This document shows positions 47,298 through 60,067 of a stretch of DNA of 64,000 nucleotides, one piece after another; the stretch's first letter is position 1, and the number at the start of each line of letters is the position of its first letter. Below the pieces are notes generated by a model. That model was not told where the DNA came from, did not search any database, and saw only the letters and a list, made by a program, of their open reading frames with translations. The DNA is from Cyanobacteria bacterium SW_9_44_58 (lineage in GTDB: Bacteria; Cyanobacteriota; Cyanobacteriia; Cyanobacteriales; Rubidibacteraceae): contig PXPI01000106.1 in the NCBI GenBank assembly GCA_003021905.1, positions 1 to 64,000 on the forward strand, in the 5' to 3' direction. A program made the position numbers and the translations under genes.

Positions 47298-48302
47298 ATG
47301 GATGCTGATGAACTTTTAGAGCATTATCAAAACGGCCGCAAATCTTTTATAGATGAAAATTTAAGCTGTACTAATCTCTCGGATGCTAATTTAATTCGTA
47401 TTAACTTGTCTAGGGCTAATTTAGAGAAAACGACACTCACTTTTGCTTTTCTTAAGGAAGCTAACTTAAATAGCAGCAACTGCGCCAAGGCAACCCTAAG
47501 TGGAATTGATTTGAACCAAAGTACCCTTCGATTTGCGAATCTTCACGATTGCGATTTACACGGTGCCATTCTACAAGGTGCTAATCTTGCAGATACTAAC
47601 CTCACCTTAGCCAATCTCCTAGATAGCAACTTAATGGAAGCTAATTTGGAAGGGGCAGACTTAAGCGGTGCCGATTTAACAGGCGTTTCCTTATTAGGGG
47701 CAATATTGACAAGCTTTGGGAGACAAGGAAAAGACAATCCTCGCAGAACTAAACTCAAAAGAAGCATCTTAAAAAGAGCTGATTTGGAAGGATTAAATCT
47801 GGATAATTTAGATTTTACTCAAGCTATTTTATGGGAAGCCAATTTAGTTCGAGCGAGTTTTGCCAAAGCCAACCTACAGCAAGCCCATCTACAAGAGGCG
47901 AATTTGTTTGCTGCTGATTTAACGGGGGCCAATTTAAGCGATGCTAATCTTAGGGGAGCCAATTTAACCAAGGCGAATTTGGAATGGGCGAATTTAACAG
48001 GGGCTGACTTAACCGGCGCCTATCTGAATGAAACAAAAATGTTTGAGGGAATTTTTAACAATGCTACTTTGGTTAAAGCCAAATTGCAACGTGCAAGAAT
48101 GATTGGGGCTAGTTTGAAGCAAGCGGATTTAACGAATGCGAACTTAATGGAAGCTAATTTGAGGCAAGCAGATTTAACACAAGCCAATTTAACCGGTGCT
48201 AATCTTGATCATGCTGATTTAACCAATACGGAGTTGACTGGTACCAATTGCACCAATGTCAATTTAGAAGGCGTTATTCTCCCTGATGGAATTACCTATT
48301 GA
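47298..48302 (+). CDS. Pentapeptide-repeat protein
   Basis: Extended A(D/N)L array; 9-nt gap from the preceding ORF. Confidence 0.95.
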   Translation: MDADELLEHYQNGRKSFIDENLSCTNLSDANLIRINLSRANLEKTTLTFAFLKEANLNSSNCAKATLSGIDLNQSTLRFANLHDCDLHGAILQGANLADTNLTLANLLDSNLMEANLEGADLSGADLTGVSLLGAILTSFGRQGKDNPRRTKLKRSILKRADLEGLNLDNLDFTQAILWEANLVRASFAKANLQQAHLQEANLFAADLTGANLSDANLRGANLTKANLEWANLTGADLTGAYLNETKMFEGIFNNATLVKAKLQRARMIGASLKQADLTNANLMEANLRQADLTQANLTGANLDHADLTNTELTGTNCTNVNLEGVILPDGITY

Positions 48303-53828: not shown

Positions 53829-54779
53829 ATGAAGCATTTACCGAATTTTTTTATTGTTGGCGCCCCAAGATGCGGTACGACTGCTTTAAGCCGTTATATT
53901 TCCCAGCATAAAAATATTTGTTTGTCGCGGCCCAAGGAAACGCATTTTCTTTTTAACTCCCCTGCCAATTATCCCGCTTTCCAGGCTTATCTGAATCAAT
54001 ACACTCAGCAATTTTTCTGTCATTGCCGCCCCCATCATCTGGCGATTGGGGAGGGGTCCGTAACTTATATTTATTCTGATGAGGTGCTTGGTCGCATTCT
54101 CGATATTAATCCCGACGCCAAATTTATTGCGATGGTGCGCAATCCCATTGATCTCCTGCGTTCCTACCATTTTCGGCTGTTGTACCTCATGGATGAGGAT
54201 TGTTGGGATTTCCAACAAGCTTGGGAACGTCAAGAATCGAGAGCGCGCGGTGAAAACTTGCCGCCTTTGTGTCGCGATCCCCGTTTATTACAGTATAAGG
54301 AAGCGGGAAAACTCGGTAAATGGATTGAGCGATTATTTGCCATTGCTGGGCGCGATCGCTGTCTGATTTTGGTATTTGATGACTTGAAACAAGATCCCCG
54401 CAGAACTTACCAACAGGTTTGTCAGTTTCTAGAGGTAGAAGATGATGGCCGAACCGCCTTCCCTCGACGGCAACAAAGCCAATTTTATCGATTTGCCTGG
54501 TTGCAGCGCTTATTATTCCATCCGCCCCAAACTGTTATGAATTGGGCAACAAATTCCTCGTCTAGAGGAGTGATGCGGCAATGGCAACAACTGGCCCTGC
54601 TTCGGTTACACCGAGGCTTGCGTACCCTAAATGCCGTCAAGCAAGATCCCCCTAATCTCGGTCCGGAAATGAAAGAGCGCCTGCAAAATACCTTTGCCGA
54701 AGATGTGGAACATCTATCGGCGTTGCTAGGGCGAGATCTAACGCCTTGGGTCAATCAATCGCCAACGTCGAAATTTTAA
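53829..54779 (+). CDS. Sulfotransferase family protein
   Basis: NFFIVGAPRCGTTALSRYISQH 5'-PAPS-binding motif; AMVRNPIDLLRSYHF. Confidence 0.93.
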   Translation: MKHLPNFFIVGAPRCGTTALSRYISQHKNICLSRPKETHFLFNSPANYPAFQAYLNQYTQQFFCHCRPHHLAIGEGSVTYIYSDEVLGRILDINPDAKFIAMVRNPIDLLRSYHFRLLYLMDEDCWDFQQAWERQESRARGENLPPLCRDPRLLQYKEAGKLGKWIERLFAIAGRDRCLILVFDDLKQDPRRTYQQVCQFLEVEDDGRTAFPRRQQSQFYRFAWLQRLLFHPPQTVMNWATNSSSRGVMRQWQQLALLRLHRGLRTLNAVKQDPPNLGPEMKERLQNTFAEDVEHLSALLGRDLTPWVNQSPTSKF

Positions 54780-54784
54780 TTGCG

Positions 54785-55993
54785 ATGGCACTCCCGAAAC
54801 GAGTTCGTTTCCAGCTCAACAGCGACATTCACCGAGAACAAGTTCCCATGCTGAGTGTCCTTTTGGCGGCAGGTTGCCTCACCAGTATTACTGGGGGCGC
54901 GATCGCGCCGGTGTTTCCCGATATTGTTGCGGAATTAAATCTCAATCCCCGCTGGGCGGGAATCCTGGTTAGTATCCCCCGACTCACCGTTGCCATAGCC
55001 AATCCGTTATTGGGATTTATTGCCGATCGCGTGGGAAAATTGACGGTGTTGCTCCCTTCTCTCATTGCATTTGCTCTCTTTGGCATCATGGGGGCGTTTT
55101 CTCAGAATTTATTCTCTCTGTTGATTTTGCGAGCATTGGTGGGAGTTGCCAATGGCGGCATCTCCGCAGCCAGTCTGGGCTTTGTGGCTCACTTATTTGA
55201 AGGGGAGACGCGATCGCGCTTAATGGGCTATACTGCCAGCGTCATTACTATCGCCAGTATTATTGTTCCCCTGTTAGCGGGTTGGTTCGGTTCATTCCAT
55301 TGGCGGTTTGCCTTCTGTCTGTATGGCTTGGCGTTGCCAGTGGCGATCGCGGCGCGGTTGTTGATTAAAGTTCCCAGCGATCCCAAAACCGACTCAGAAC
55401 AAAAAGTCGCCTTACAGCATCTTTCTCAGGCGTTCAGCAATGTTCGTTTGGGAATCGTTCTCCTCACCCTCTATGGGACAGCCACGATATTTTATACAGT
55501 TCTGGTGTATGCTCCCCTCTACTTTCAAACCGCAATTGGGGCGGATTCGGTTCTCAATGGAATGATTTTAGCGGCTCGCGCGATCGGGGCTGCCATTATT
55601 GCTGCGGTGGGGGCTGCTTCTGTGGCAAAGCGGTTAGGGAAAACCCAAGCAACGAGTTTCGGTTTAGTCATTATGGCTGTGACAGTGGCGGCGATTCCTT
55701 TTCTCAATACTCCTCAAAGCGCATTAATCACGGCTTTTGGCTTTGGTCTGGGCTTCGGGTTAGCGATGCCCAATGCTTATGATACCCTTGCTGATTTAGC
55801 CCCCGCTGCGGGACGATCCACCCTCCTTGCCCTGGGCGCTGGAACTGCTTCTCTCGGACAATTTTTATCCCCCATTCTTCTGGGGGCAGTTTGGGAAAGC
55901 GGCGAGTCAAATGTCTTCTTTGTGGCAGGCGCGATCGCGATCGCCCTCGCTTTATTGCAATTGTTGCGTCCCTCCCAGATGTCTAATGTCTAA
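54785..55993 (+). CDS. MFS transporter
   Basis: 12-TM MFS; GFIADRVGKLTVLLPSLIAF motif A; start moved to 54785. Confidence 0.9.
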   Translation: MALPKRVRFQLNSDIHREQVPMLSVLLAAGCLTSITGGAIAPVFPDIVAELNLNPRWAGILVSIPRLTVAIANPLLGFIADRVGKLTVLLPSLIAFALFGIMGAFSQNLFSLLILRALVGVANGGISAASLGFVAHLFEGETRSRLMGYTASVITIASIIVPLLAGWFGSFHWRFAFCLYGLALPVAIAARLLIKVPSDPKTDSEQKVALQHLSQAFSNVRLGIVLLTLYGTATIFYTVLVYAPLYFQTAIGADSVLNGMILAARAIGAAIIAAVGAASVAKRLGKTQATSFGLVIMAVTVAAIPFLNTPQSALITAFGFGLGFGLAMPNAYDTLADLAPAAGRSTLLALGAGTASLGQFLSPILLGAVWESGESNVFFVAGAIAIALALLQLLRPSQMSNV

Positions 55994-56018
55994 TTTCTCA
56001 GCAAGCCCTTAAACTGTT

Positions 56019-57746
56019 ATGAACTCGATTCTGCAAATTCCAATTAAACGTTTTGCCCGATTTATCACCCGTCAATTCACGCGAAAAACGCAACGGACAG
56101 CAACCGTTCAAAAACAGTTTCTTCTATCTCTTTTAAAGGAGCATCAAGATACAGCCTTTGGTCGTGAATACGGCTTTCGTGATATTGGCACCGTTGAGGA
56201 ATTTCGAAAACGGATTCCGGTGCTGAACTATCGCGATTATAAGCCCTACGTGGAACAAATTGCGCAAGGGGCTTCCAACGTCCTCACTGCTGATTCTGTG
56301 AAATATATGAACATGACCAGCGGTTCCACAGGCAAACAGAAACTCATTCCGGTCACGAAACAATCGCAGCGATTCAATCGTCAAGCAAACTTAACCAGTA
56401 TTTGCTTTGGGATAAAATCGGCGGCAGAACAGGGATTGGCCTTCGGGCAAATTCTAGTTACCAGTTCAGTCCAATTGTTGGGAGAAACCTCAGCAGGGAT
56501 TCCCTATGGCCCAGTGAGTGTTAGCCATCTGCGATCAACAAATATTTTTGCCCGACAACTGTTTGCTCATCCTTATCAAGCCTTAGAACCCAGTGATAGC
56601 CTAGCGCGCCATTACGTTTGCTTGTTGTTTGCACTGAAAAATCCCCATACCCGAGTTATTGCCGCTAATTTTCCCGTGTTAGCCCTGCGATTGTGCCACT
56701 ATTTGGAAAATTATGCCGAATTTCTTATTGAGGATTTAGAACGCGGCGCGATCGCGCCTTGGTTGAATCTAGAACCTGAATTGCGAGCTAACCTAGAGAA
56801 AAAACTCTTCCCTGCCCCCAAACGCGCTCAGCAACTGCGCCAAATTCTTCAGCAACATCAGCGGTTAACCCCGATTCTCGCTTGGCCGGATCTTTCCTGT
56901 GTTGTCACTGCTCGCGGCGGAACTTCAGATTTCTACCTACAACAATTTCCCGAATACTTTGGTAGTACCCCTGTCTTTGGCGGAATTTACTCCTCGGCGG
57001 AAAGCATTTTTGGCATTACACCCCAACTCAACCAAGACAGCAACATCCTCGCCATTGAAACGGGCTTTTTTGAATTCATTCCCCCCCAACAGTGGGAGAA
57101 ATCCCAACCCCATACCCTACTGGCAGAAGAAGTGAAAGTTGGGGAACTGTATCGGATTGTGGTTAGCAATTACAATGGCTTTTATCGCTATGACATTGGT
57201 GATGTGGTCGAAGTAGCGGGATTTTGCGGCACTGCCCCGCTAATCGTCTTTCGTTACCGACGCGGCGGCCTTTTGTCTTCGACAACCGAAAAAACAACGG
57301 AATTTCACGCCCTACAGGTAATGCAGCAACTCCAACAGGAATTCAACATTTCCTTGGAAAGTTTCTGTATTACCCTCTCGAATGATCATCAAACCCCGCC
57401 TGCCTATCTGGTTAACATCGAACTATCTCCCGGTTCGACATTGCCTAATCCCCAACAATTTCTAGAACAATTTGATCGGCGCTTAAAAACGATTCATGCC
57501 TCTTATGAAGTGAAACGGCGCGATCAGGTGCCTCCGCCGCGCTTGCGAATATTAGCCCCAGGCAGTTTTGGCAAGCTTTACCAACGTCTGATGCAACAAG
57601 GGATTCCGGAACATCATCTCAAATTTCCCCATATTAGCGAAGATCGCGCTTTTTTAGCGGATCTGCCGGTGGAAAAAGAAGTGTTATTCCCCAGCGATTC
57701 TCAAATGCCAACCCTGGGACGAGATTTAATCATTGATGAAAATTAA
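56019..57746 (+). CDS. GH3 (auxin-responsive promoter) family acyl-adenylate/amido synthetase
   Basis: MTSGSTGKQKLIPVT; YSSAESIFGI; VVSNYNGFYRYDIGDVVEV. Confidence 0.92.
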   Translation: MNSILQIPIKRFARFITRQFTRKTQRTATVQKQFLLSLLKEHQDTAFGREYGFRDIGTVEEFRKRIPVLNYRDYKPYVEQIAQGASNVLTADSVKYMNMTSGSTGKQKLIPVTKQSQRFNRQANLTSICFGIKSAAEQGLAFGQILVTSSVQLLGETSAGIPYGPVSVSHLRSTNIFARQLFAHPYQALEPSDSLARHYVCLLFALKNPHTRVIAANFPVLALRLCHYLENYAEFLIEDLERGAIAPWLNLEPELRANLEKKLFPAPKRAQQLRQILQQHQRLTPILAWPDLSCVVTARGGTSDFYLQQFPEYFGSTPVFGGIYSSAESIFGITPQLNQDSNILAIETGFFEFIPPQQWEKSQPHTLLAEEVKVGELYRIVVSNYNGFYRYDIGDVVEVAGFCGTAPLIVFRYRRGGLLSSTTEKTTEFHALQVMQQLQQEFNISLESFCITLSNDHQTPPAYLVNIELSPGSTLPNPQQFLEQFDRRLKTIHASYEVKRRDQVPPPRLRILAPGSFGKLYQRLMQQGIPEHHLKFPHISEDRAFLADLPVEKEVLFPSDSQMPTLGRDLIIDEN

Positions 57747-57764
57747 TGCAATCTAGGAGTAGCC

Positions 57765-58511
57765 ATGCCAAAAAAAGATTGGGTCAAAACCCTTGTCAAC
57801 ACCCCTGCCATTAAAAAGCTCGAAGCCCAAGTTCCCAAATACTCTAAGGTTGGAGATTCAGTTTTCTTTACAACCGAACAATTCCCGTGGGCAAAAAAGT
57901 TGGAAGCCAATTGGCACCTTATTCGCCAAGAATTGGATGATGTGCTGGAGCGTGTGGGAGAATTGCCGAACTTCCAAGACATTATGCATAGGCAACAACG
58001 CATTAGCCAAGATGATGGCTGGAAAACATATTATTTCTGTGCCTTTAACTTTGTTGCCCAGAAAAACTGCGATCGCTGTCCGCAAACTTGGAACTTGATT
58101 AAAGATATTCCTGGTTTAAAGGTTGCCTTCTTCTCTATCTTAAGTCCTGGAAAACAGATTCCGGAACATCGCGGCAAACACAAAGGCTTAATCCGCTATC
58201 ATTTGGGATTAAGAGTGCCGGAACCCAAAGACGCCTGCGGCATTCGGGTTGGCAATGAGATTGCCCATTGGGAAGAAGGGCAAAGTTTAATTTTTGATGA
58301 TACCTTTCCCCACCAAGCATGGAATAACAGCCATGGCTATCGCGTTGTCTTGTTTCTGGATATTGCCCGACCCTTGCACTTTCCTCTCTCGGTTGTCAAT
58401 TGGGCTGTTTTCCAAATTCTCTCCTTTTCTCCCTTAGCCCAACAAGCGAAAGCCAATTATAAAAGTTGGGAAAAACGCTTTGAAGCACAAAATTCAGATT
58501 CGCCGCATTAG
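57765..58511 (+). CDS. Aspartyl/asparaginyl beta-hydroxylase domain protein
   Basis: SILSPGKQIPEHRGKHKGLIRYHLGL...WEEGQSLIFDDTFPHQAWNNSHGYRVVLFLDIARP. Confidence 0.93.
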   Translation: MPKKDWVKTLVNTPAIKKLEAQVPKYSKVGDSVFFTTEQFPWAKKLEANWHLIRQELDDVLERVGELPNFQDIMHRQQRISQDDGWKTYYFCAFNFVAQKNCDRCPQTWNLIKDIPGLKVAFFSILSPGKQIPEHRGKHKGLIRYHLGLRVPEPKDACGIRVGNEIAHWEEGQSLIFDDTFPHQAWNNSHGYRVVLFLDIARPLHFPLSVVNWAVFQILSFSPLAQQAKANYKSWEKRFEAQNSDSPH

Positions 58512-59374
58512 CGACTGCCAGGTTTTAGGATTGCTCATTCCTTCCCATAAAATTTTGGGAAGCGCAAGGGCAGATCCCAAATGTACCCGCCACTTATTCC
58601 ACGACCAAGCAGCACTTGTTAAGGGGTGAGGATGCCAAAAGCGATTAATCGAGCAAACCACCTCATCCCCAAGAGTTGTCACTTCGTGCCACCAACCTGC
58701 GGGAATATACAATACTTCTCCGGCTTGTAGGGTGAGATCATAGCGTTGCTGCAAAGCTTGTTTGAGTTTGGGAAACTCCGAAAAGTCGGGACGATCGGGA
58801 TAAACTTGACTATAAGAGGCGCGCAGTTTTAAACCATGTTTAAGGTGAACCGATACCGGAAACGGATACAGATTGTTCAATTCCTGCGGTGAAAACAGCA
58901 CGACTTTTTTAGACCCTTGCAGTTGAATCAATAAACTATCCACCGGATCGTAATGCAGGCAAGTCGTATGACCGCCAGGCCCAATCCCAGTTTATTAATA
59001 ATGTCGTTTAAAACCGGATGCTCGGCAAGGGGAGTTCCTTTCAAAGGAAATTTCGCTAAATAAATATCGCGATCGCGCGCTTCTTGACGTTGAATCAACT
59101 GGGCAAATTCTGAAAAAGAAAGGGTTTTAGGTTCCATCCCCCGACCAATTTCTTGCCATTGGCGTTTATCCTGTTGATAACGTTGTCGTCCATAAGCCCG
59201 CACCGGTGTAGGATAATCTGCTAAATAATGACATAGAAAATCTAAATCCCAACTTGTCTGTTGGGGCAGTAAGTCTAAAATAATTGCAGGTTGATTGGCA
59301 CTGCGATGCTGCTCAAAAAAATCCTGTGTTTTTAAGCTTTCAATGGGAATCCGAGGAATAGTCAGAGTTGACAT
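58494..59374 (-). pseudogene. Cupin-8/JmjC-like 2-oxoglutarate oxygenase, single frameshift
   Basis: ORFs 58928-59374 and 58494-58943. The other frame across the break reads GPGGHTTCLHYDPVDSLLIQLQGSKKVVLFSP. Confidence 0.8.
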
Positions 59375-59419: not shown

Positions 59420-60067
59420 CTATCGTTCCAGATCCGCCTGAGTTCCTACTAAACAAGTATTTTCCAAATTAGCCCCTTTCAAGTTCGTGTTTTCCAACTC
59501 AGCACACAAAAGGTTTGCCCCTTCTAAATTCGCACCGCCAAGATTGGCGCCTCGCAAATCGGCTTCCTCTAAGTTGGCTTCGCTTAAATCAGCCCCGTTT
59601 AAGTTGGCATCGGATAAGTTAGCCCCCTTAAGATTAGCCCCCTGGAAATTAGCGCCTTGTAAATCCGCAGCGCGCAAATCGCCCCCTTGCAGATTGGCTT
59701 CACTGAAATTAGATCCATTCACAAATGCCCCAGCTAAGCTAACTCGCGATAAGGCGGCCCCCATTAAATTAGCGCCGCGAAGAATGCTGCCGCGCAAATC
59801 GGCGCTTTTTAAATTCGCCCGCACCAGATTAGCGCCAAGCAAGCTGGCACGAAGATCCGTTGCAATCAGTGTTGCTCCTAATAGATTGGCCCCATCCAGG
59901 TGAGCGGATTGCATATTGGCGCCGGATAAATCGATTCCTCCTAAATTGGCGCCGCTGAGGTTCACTTGCGCTAAATAGGCTTGCGTTAGGGCTTCGTCTT
60001 CGAGATCTGCCCCAGGAAGCTCTTGAATTTTGCCATGACGAATTGCTTCGAGATCCATTTCCTTCAT
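59420..60067 (-). CDS. Pentapeptide-repeat protein
   Basis: A(D/N)LxGA array throughout. Confidence 0.95.
   Translation of the reverse strand: MKEMDLEAIRHGKIQELPGADLEDEALTQAYLAQVNLSGANLGGIDLSGANMQSAHLDGANLLGATLIATDLRASLLGANLVRANLKSADLRGSILRGANLMGAALSRVSLAGAFVNGSNFSEANLQGGDLRAADLQGANFQGANLKGANLSDANLNGADLSEANLEEADLRGANLGGANLEGANLLCAELENTNLKGANLENTCLVGTQADLER

Follow-up and report, generated by a model that had tools for sequence, protein, structure and literature searches.

The question raised by this locus is what a cyanobacterium makes with a GH3-family enzyme encoded among a sulfotransferase, a transporter and two oxygenases. The locus occupies positions 53829 to 59374 of the window – the whole 64,000-nucleotide stretch of contig PXPI01000106.1 from Cyanobacteria bacterium SW_9_44_58 that was analysed – and belongs to a 2.94-Mb, Halothece-like assembly. 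On balance we favour the view, held with some confidence but well short of conviction, that the locus serves a sphingolipid-like amino-lipid pathway by tailoring and exporting its product. That view draws on the content, order and conservation of the genes, and on the linkage and co-occurrence of GH3 genes with genes for an oxoamine synthase resembling serine palmitoyltransferase (SPT). The features of the locus, with their best Pfam E-values, are as follows.

53829..54779, + strand: PAPS-type sulfotransferase (ST), 316 aa; PF13469 4.2e-16, PF00685 1.8e-13.
54785..55993, + strand: major facilitator superfamily (MFS) transporter, 402 aa from the ATG; PF07690 1.7e-51.
56019..57746, + strand: predicted GH3-family acyl-adenylating amide synthetase, 575 aa; PF03321 3.6e-84, GH3_M 1.2e-24, GH3_C 3.4e-20.
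56313..56342, + strand: GH3 nucleotide-binding motif I, MTSGSTGKQK, residues 99-108; S101, G102, T104 and K108 invariant in 54/54 GH3s.
56982..57005, + strand: GH3 nucleotide-binding motif II, GIYSSAES, residues 322-329; E328 invariant in 54/54.
57177..57203, + strand: GH3 nucleotide-binding motif III, GFYRYDIGD, residues 387-395; G387, R390, Y391 and D395 invariant in 54/54.
57765..58511, + strand: putative lipid hydroxylase of the Fe(II)/2-oxoglutarate (2OG) Asp/Asn-hydroxylase fold (AspH), OlsC/LpxO-like, 248 aa; PF05118 1.1e-50.
58494..59374, - strand: cupin_8/JmjC-type Fe/2OG oxygenase in a broken frame, with a C-terminal open reading frame at 58494-58943 and an N-terminal one at 58928-59374; PF13621 3.7e-26 on the C-terminal half.

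The four plus-strand genes are real and operon-like. They are separated by gaps of 5, 25 and 18 nt, and the positions, strand and Pfam identities given for them in the preliminary description all hold, as does the 18-nt overlap with AspH created by the end, at 58494, of the convergent cupin-8/JmjC gene. Codon comparison with the sister species reveals purifying selection on every gene of the locus, with dN/dS values of 0.15 for ST, 0.17 for the N-terminal part of the MFS gene, 0.11 for GH3, 0.04 for AspH, and 0.17 and 0.08 for the two halves of the JmjC gene. Promoter and terminator scans of the operon region returned signals at or near chance.

Evidence connecting the operon to lipid synthesis came from three samples: 60 relatives, 156 Cyanobacteriia genomes drawn from across the class, and the 7 genomes behind named GH3 contigs. 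Among the relatives, an SPT-like oxoamine synthase is encoded by 25 of 25 GH3-positive genomes versus 3 of 35 GH3-negative ones (n = 60; Fisher 6e-14, kinship ignored); across the class the figures are 39 of 40 versus 17 of 116 (n = 156; Fisher 4e-22, kinship again ignored), the gene being present in 56 of the 156 genomes overall. The gene is also present in all 7 genomes of the named contigs, which include Baaleninema simplex PCC 7105 and Leptolyngbya FACHB-8. The association is also physical: less than 5 kb separates GH3 from the SPT-like gene in 21 of 60 genomes, representing 11 families (chance probability approximately 3e-39 if genomes are treated as independent), and at two loci (L175 and L036) GH3 and AspH both lie next to SPT. 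Several genomes carry two GH3s. A single GH3-positive genome, G131 of the class sample, is without an SPT-like gene at the threshold used.

A critical issue is what the SPT-like genes themselves specify. Those linked to GH3 adjoin homologues of ceramide synthase (YghO/bCerS) and ceramide reductase, and the resulting cassette comprises an SPT-like oxoamine synthase, a GNAT-fold acyltransferase and an NAD-dependent epimerase/reductase. In the window genome this cassette is contiguous (G000:C78, L080), and in blastp comparisons its members match Spt (5e-35), YghO (6e-54) and the epimerase (2e-12) of E. coli BL21. In that bacterium sphingolipid synthesis is encoded by spt, epi and yghO, and epi together with the acyltransferase gene (aca = yghO) is needed for dihydroceramide synthesis (PMC9386255). 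The same gene set is found in a Sphingomonas plasmid sphingolipid cluster and in a three-gene operon of Streptomyces. The cyanobacterial oxoamine synthases keep the pyridoxal phosphate lysine and the active-site His/Asp, and their nearest solved structure is an SPT (3a2b); NCBIfam models score BioF above SPT, all below their cut-offs. Judging from these homologies, the oxoamine synthase would condense an amino acid with a fatty acyl thioester, and the YghO/bCerS-type acyltransferase and CerR-type reductase would finish a ceramide-like core.

The wider neighbourhood of GH3 has the same character. Within 6 kb of 54 cyanobacterial GH3 genes the recurrent partners are MFS transporters of the window type (21, several of them also beside SPT), fatty-acid hydroxylases (20), Mpo1-like proteins (16), amidohydrolases (16), SPT-like oxoamine synthases (16), AspH (14), Rieske oxygenases (13) and JmjC oxygenases (12). 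In the GH3 tree the window gene falls in an AspH-linked group of 18 rows, 12 of them with AspH (support 100/99); a second group, linked to SPT and fatty-acid hydroxylase, holds the other GH3 of the window genome (L033). The nearest GH3 from a named genome belongs to a Halothece metagenome-assembled genome. The gene order of the operon is found again in other genera. The sister species (G004) has Rieske-ST-MFS on one contig and, on another, MFS-GH3-AspH followed by the convergent JmjC gene; because the contig ends overlap in the MFS gene at approximately 94% identity, the order Rieske-ST-MFS-GH3-AspH-JmjC is very likely real there. Exact joining of the two contigs was rejected, the overlap being approximately 94% and not 100%, and the two ends seem to represent one MFS gene as it occurs in different strains. 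The Rieske oxygenase was likewise considered as an obligatory partner and set aside: the sister species has it upstream of ST, whereas the window genome offers only a 38% relative. The earlier proposal of a coherent tailoring and export set around an amide-forming GH3 is thus supported by a neighbourhood that is conserved in relatives.

Two loci, L180 (G172:C138:18000-37000) and L040, show the most complete co-clustering seen: amidohydrolase, Mpo1-like protein, fatty-acid hydroxylase, B12 radical SAM enzyme, GH3, MFS, Rieske oxygenase, SPT-like synthase, YghO-like acyltransferase and epimerase.

The two enzymes at the centre of the operon point in the same direction. GH3, an amide-forming type of enzyme familiar chiefly from the chemistry of plant hormones, passes all three of its Pfam models (PF03321 283 bits, PF23571 86.6, PF23572 73.3; cut-off 23.6 each), aligns over its full length with plant JAR1 (4epl, E 1e-38), and shares with the other cyanobacterial GH3s all three ATP-binding motifs, their key residues being invariant or nearly so. 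Its closest NCBIfam model is OlsH (NF052613), at 100.4 bits against an equivalog cut-off of 620. AspH scores 172 bits against PF05118; its best NCBIfam model is OlsC (NF052565; 9.4e-80, 267.5 bits against a cut-off of 450) and its second LpxO (9e-38, also below cut-off), which places it closest to the lipid acyl hydroxylases. In an alignment with human AspH (5apa), its H135, H183 and R193 coincide with the conserved H, H and R, which serve as ligand residues in this fold. These nearest models, together with the conserved GH3 motifs and the hydroxylase H/H/R, moved our reading from plant-hormone chemistry to lipids.

They also raise an alternative, namely that the operon is a stand-alone pathway to an N-acyl amino acid resembling a lyso-ornithine lipid, with an OlsH-type GH3 and an OlsC-like AspH, the link to SPT reflecting no more than shared membrane-lipid machinery. 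OlsH, from the planctomycete Singulisphaera acidiphila, is the one biochemically studied bacterial GH3 found in our literature search; it makes N-acyl ornithine, and the authors of that study propose other amino acids as substrates for other bacterial GH3s (PMC12493201). The best models for GH3 and AspH are precisely those this alternative would call for, yet both scores stop short of their cut-offs, and no OlsI-type alpha/beta-hydrolase occurs among the five operon genes or CoaBC, a search that did not extend to the rest of the genome. Nor does the alternative predict that GH3 should almost never occur without an SPT-like gene. We regard it as unlikely, though worth keeping in mind.

More distant GH3s offered little guidance. 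Plasmid neighbourhoods (a polyketide synthase locus in Streptomyces, a radical-SAM locus in Citrobacter, and Bacteroides) were discarded as functional guides at 24-28% identity, and a viral origin of GH3 was rejected after an IMG/VR scan found none. On the Citrobacter plasmid (L149:8025-17512) several radical SAM genes come after GH3, together with genes for an N-acetyltransferase and a PAP2 phosphatase, all with generic annotation only. Distant cyanobacterial GH3s of 23-29% identity (L144:1631-10713; also L142 and L143) belong to a further, uncharacterised pathway: they sit in a different cluster, with Rieske oxygenases, ferredoxin, fatty-acid hydroxylase and weak AurF-like and ferritin-like matches.

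AspH provides a parallel that does not involve GH3. A more distant form (approximately 50% identity) occurs in six relatives without GH3, and in three of these (L127-L129) it stands beside an oxoamine synthase; the AspH family therefore goes with oxoamine-synthase lipid genes in two settings. At L127 (3387-17352) and L128 (4038-11750) the oxoamine synthase carries a fused acyl carrier domain, with flanking genes for fatty acyl-AMP ligases (FAALs), the arrangement of proteobacterial sphingolipid loci, and at L128 an ST lies directly upstream.

These FAAL-containing clusters bear on a further possibility: that GH3 activates acyl groups for the oxoamine synthase or the ceramide synthase, standing in for the acyl-ACP synthetase AasR and for AcpR. 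Proteobacterial Spt needs both (PMC9386255), no AasR/AcpR pair is found among the recurrent neighbours of GH3-type cassettes, GH3 and AasR are alike adenylate-forming acyl-activating enzymes, and the GH3-negative FAAL clusters look complementary. Against this, characterised GH3s pass acyl-AMP to amines rather than thiols, several genomes hold two GH3s, and 17 of the 56 SPT-positive genomes manage with none. We therefore think this role improbable. Those 17 genomes, set beside the single GH3-positive genome without SPT, suggest that GH3 acts as a step dependent on the core and does not itself belong to it.

ST and the transporter remain to be placed. ST passes both its Pfam cut-offs and matches a sulfotransferase of known structure (PDB 3rnl, E 5e-29 over residues 5-309); its 5'-phosphosulfate-binding loop, GAPRCGTT, spans residues 11-18, and R104 and S112 fall in the 3'-phosphate motif. 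The MFS gene more plausibly starts at the ATG at 54785; a start at the upstream TTG (54746) would make it overlap ST. The sister-species orthologue of ST (72-73% identity) adjoins MFS, and the pair recurs in G013 (58% and 56% identity) with no GH3 nearby. Such a free-standing pair, the operon structure and the presence of an exporter would all suit a secreted small molecule, such as a sulfated acyl-amino acid natural product. The conserved neighbourhood is nonetheless dominated by lipid-type partners and AspH lies on the lipid-hydroxylase side of its family, and this explanation seems to us the least probable of those considered. The preliminary description had itself envisaged a small acyl-amino acid; that part of it is revised, the context – SPT-like, bCerS/YghO-type and CerR-type proteins, fatty-acid hydroxylase, Mpo1-like protein – pointing to a membrane-lipid pathway.

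Several observations weigh against a sphingolipid-like pathway. The operon and the SPT cassette lie on different contigs of the window genome, and SPT-positive genomes without GH3 are, as noted, not rare. The co-occurrence counts take no account of phylogeny, though the linkage spans 11 families. ST is the least conserved member of the neighbourhood: clear orthologues are confined to the sister species, G013 (in both of which the ST-MFS pair is kept) and G035, where the gene is unlinked. The cyanobacterial oxoamine synthases form a deep clade of their own, apart from both proteobacterial Spt and cyanobacterial BioF; serine is therefore only a candidate substrate and a true ceramide only a putative product, and "sphingolipid-like" is as far as the description can go. 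Finally, a sphingolipidomic study of Nostoc punctiforme found no sphingolipids (PMC8895605). That organism has only a BioF-type enzyme (PMC8895605), however, and the negative result thus has no bearing on strains that carry the cassette.

The fifth gene, listed in the preliminary description as a convergent cupin-8/JmjC-like oxygenase, calls for separate comment. It is not intact: it consists of two open reading frames in different frames, and no single frame holds the complete domain with its HxD...H motif. The nearest relative (L034) has an intact 304-aa orthologue, and against it the window gene lacks 34 nt at about 58988, shortly upstream of the HxD iron motif; a simple homopolymer error was rejected for this reason. 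The frame of a second cupin-8/JmjC gene of the window genome (L033:7794-8656) is also disrupted at this motif, there by an insertion, whereas close relatives have intact versions. The lesions reflect either loss of the function in this lineage or misassembly at both sites. Outside the operon, pentapeptide-repeat-like proteins at 47298-48302 and 59420-60067 flank the wider region.

If the operon does tailor and export a sphingolipid-like product, its contribution might run as follows. GH3 would convert a free carboxylic (fatty) acid into an acyl-AMP and join it to an amine as an amide, in the manner of plant GH3s and planctomycete OlsH; the OlsC/LpxO-like enzyme would hydroxylate the acyl chain, ST would place sulfate on a lipid hydroxyl, and the MFS protein would export or flip the product. 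We infer the chemistry of every step, including which acid and amine GH3 takes, which position is hydroxylated, the order of steps, sulfation and transport. A more specific version – a sulfated, chain-hydroxylated sphingolipid-like membrane lipid, with GH3 as an ATP-dependent, free-acid-using N-acyl (ceramide-type) synthase – is a tentative suggestion that we would not expect to hold in full. Were it true, the GH3 route to the ceramide amide bond would differ from those of the characterised bacterial bCerS and eukaryotic CerS.

Only two cyanobacterial ceramides have been reported, from Scytonema julianum and Moorea producens; as of 2022 a genetic basis had been reported for neither and no cyanobacterial sphingolipid enzyme had been characterised (PMC8895605). 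The sphingolipid-like reading is therefore directly testable. The linkage supplies a set of candidate genes with a wide distribution in Cyanobacteriia, and if the reading is true the question of cyanobacterial sphingolipids becomes one that can be tested; the bacterial GH3 family, large and mostly uncharacterised, gains a second lipid context besides ornithine lipids. OlsH is a known case of a GH3 acting in lipid synthesis, and the Spt-bCerS-CerR pathway is likewise known. The open-licence papers searched contain no report of the tight GH3-SPT linkage, its cyanobacterial spread or the GH3-AspH-MFS-ST arm.

Comparison with known systems brings out both the parallels and the departures. With OlsC and LpxO, AspH shares the Asp_Arg_Hydrox fold, the conserved H/H/R and a lipid setting; it falls below both equivalog cut-offs, however, and its neighbours suggest a sphingoid-type substrate rather than ornithine lipid or lipid A. 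The OlsH/OlsI ornithine lipid pathway of Singulisphaera acidiphila (PMC12493201) likewise places a bacterial GH3, with three ATP-binding motifs and amide formation expected, in a lipid context, but the window GH3 is far below the OlsH cut-off, no OlsI is encoded in the operon, and the partners of window-type GH3s are an SPT-like cassette, an OlsC-like hydroxylase, ST and MFS. Sulfated and sulfono 1-deoxyceramides of the Black Sea, assigned to anaerobic bacteria (PMC11334938), provide a precedent for ST in a ceramide pathway, although the portion of that source drawn on here identifies neither a cyanobacterial producer nor a sulfotransferase. A further parallel is the Spt-bCerS(YghO/Aca)-CerR(epi) pathway of Caulobacter, Sphingomonas and E. 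coli B (PMC9386255, PMC11087976), to which the contiguous cassette of the window genome is homologous gene by gene. The cyanobacterial oxoamine synthase nevertheless belongs to a separate clade, and in place of an adjacent AcpR or AasR the cyanobacterial cassettes keep company with GH3, Rieske oxygenase, fatty-acid hydroxylase, Mpo1-like protein and AspH.

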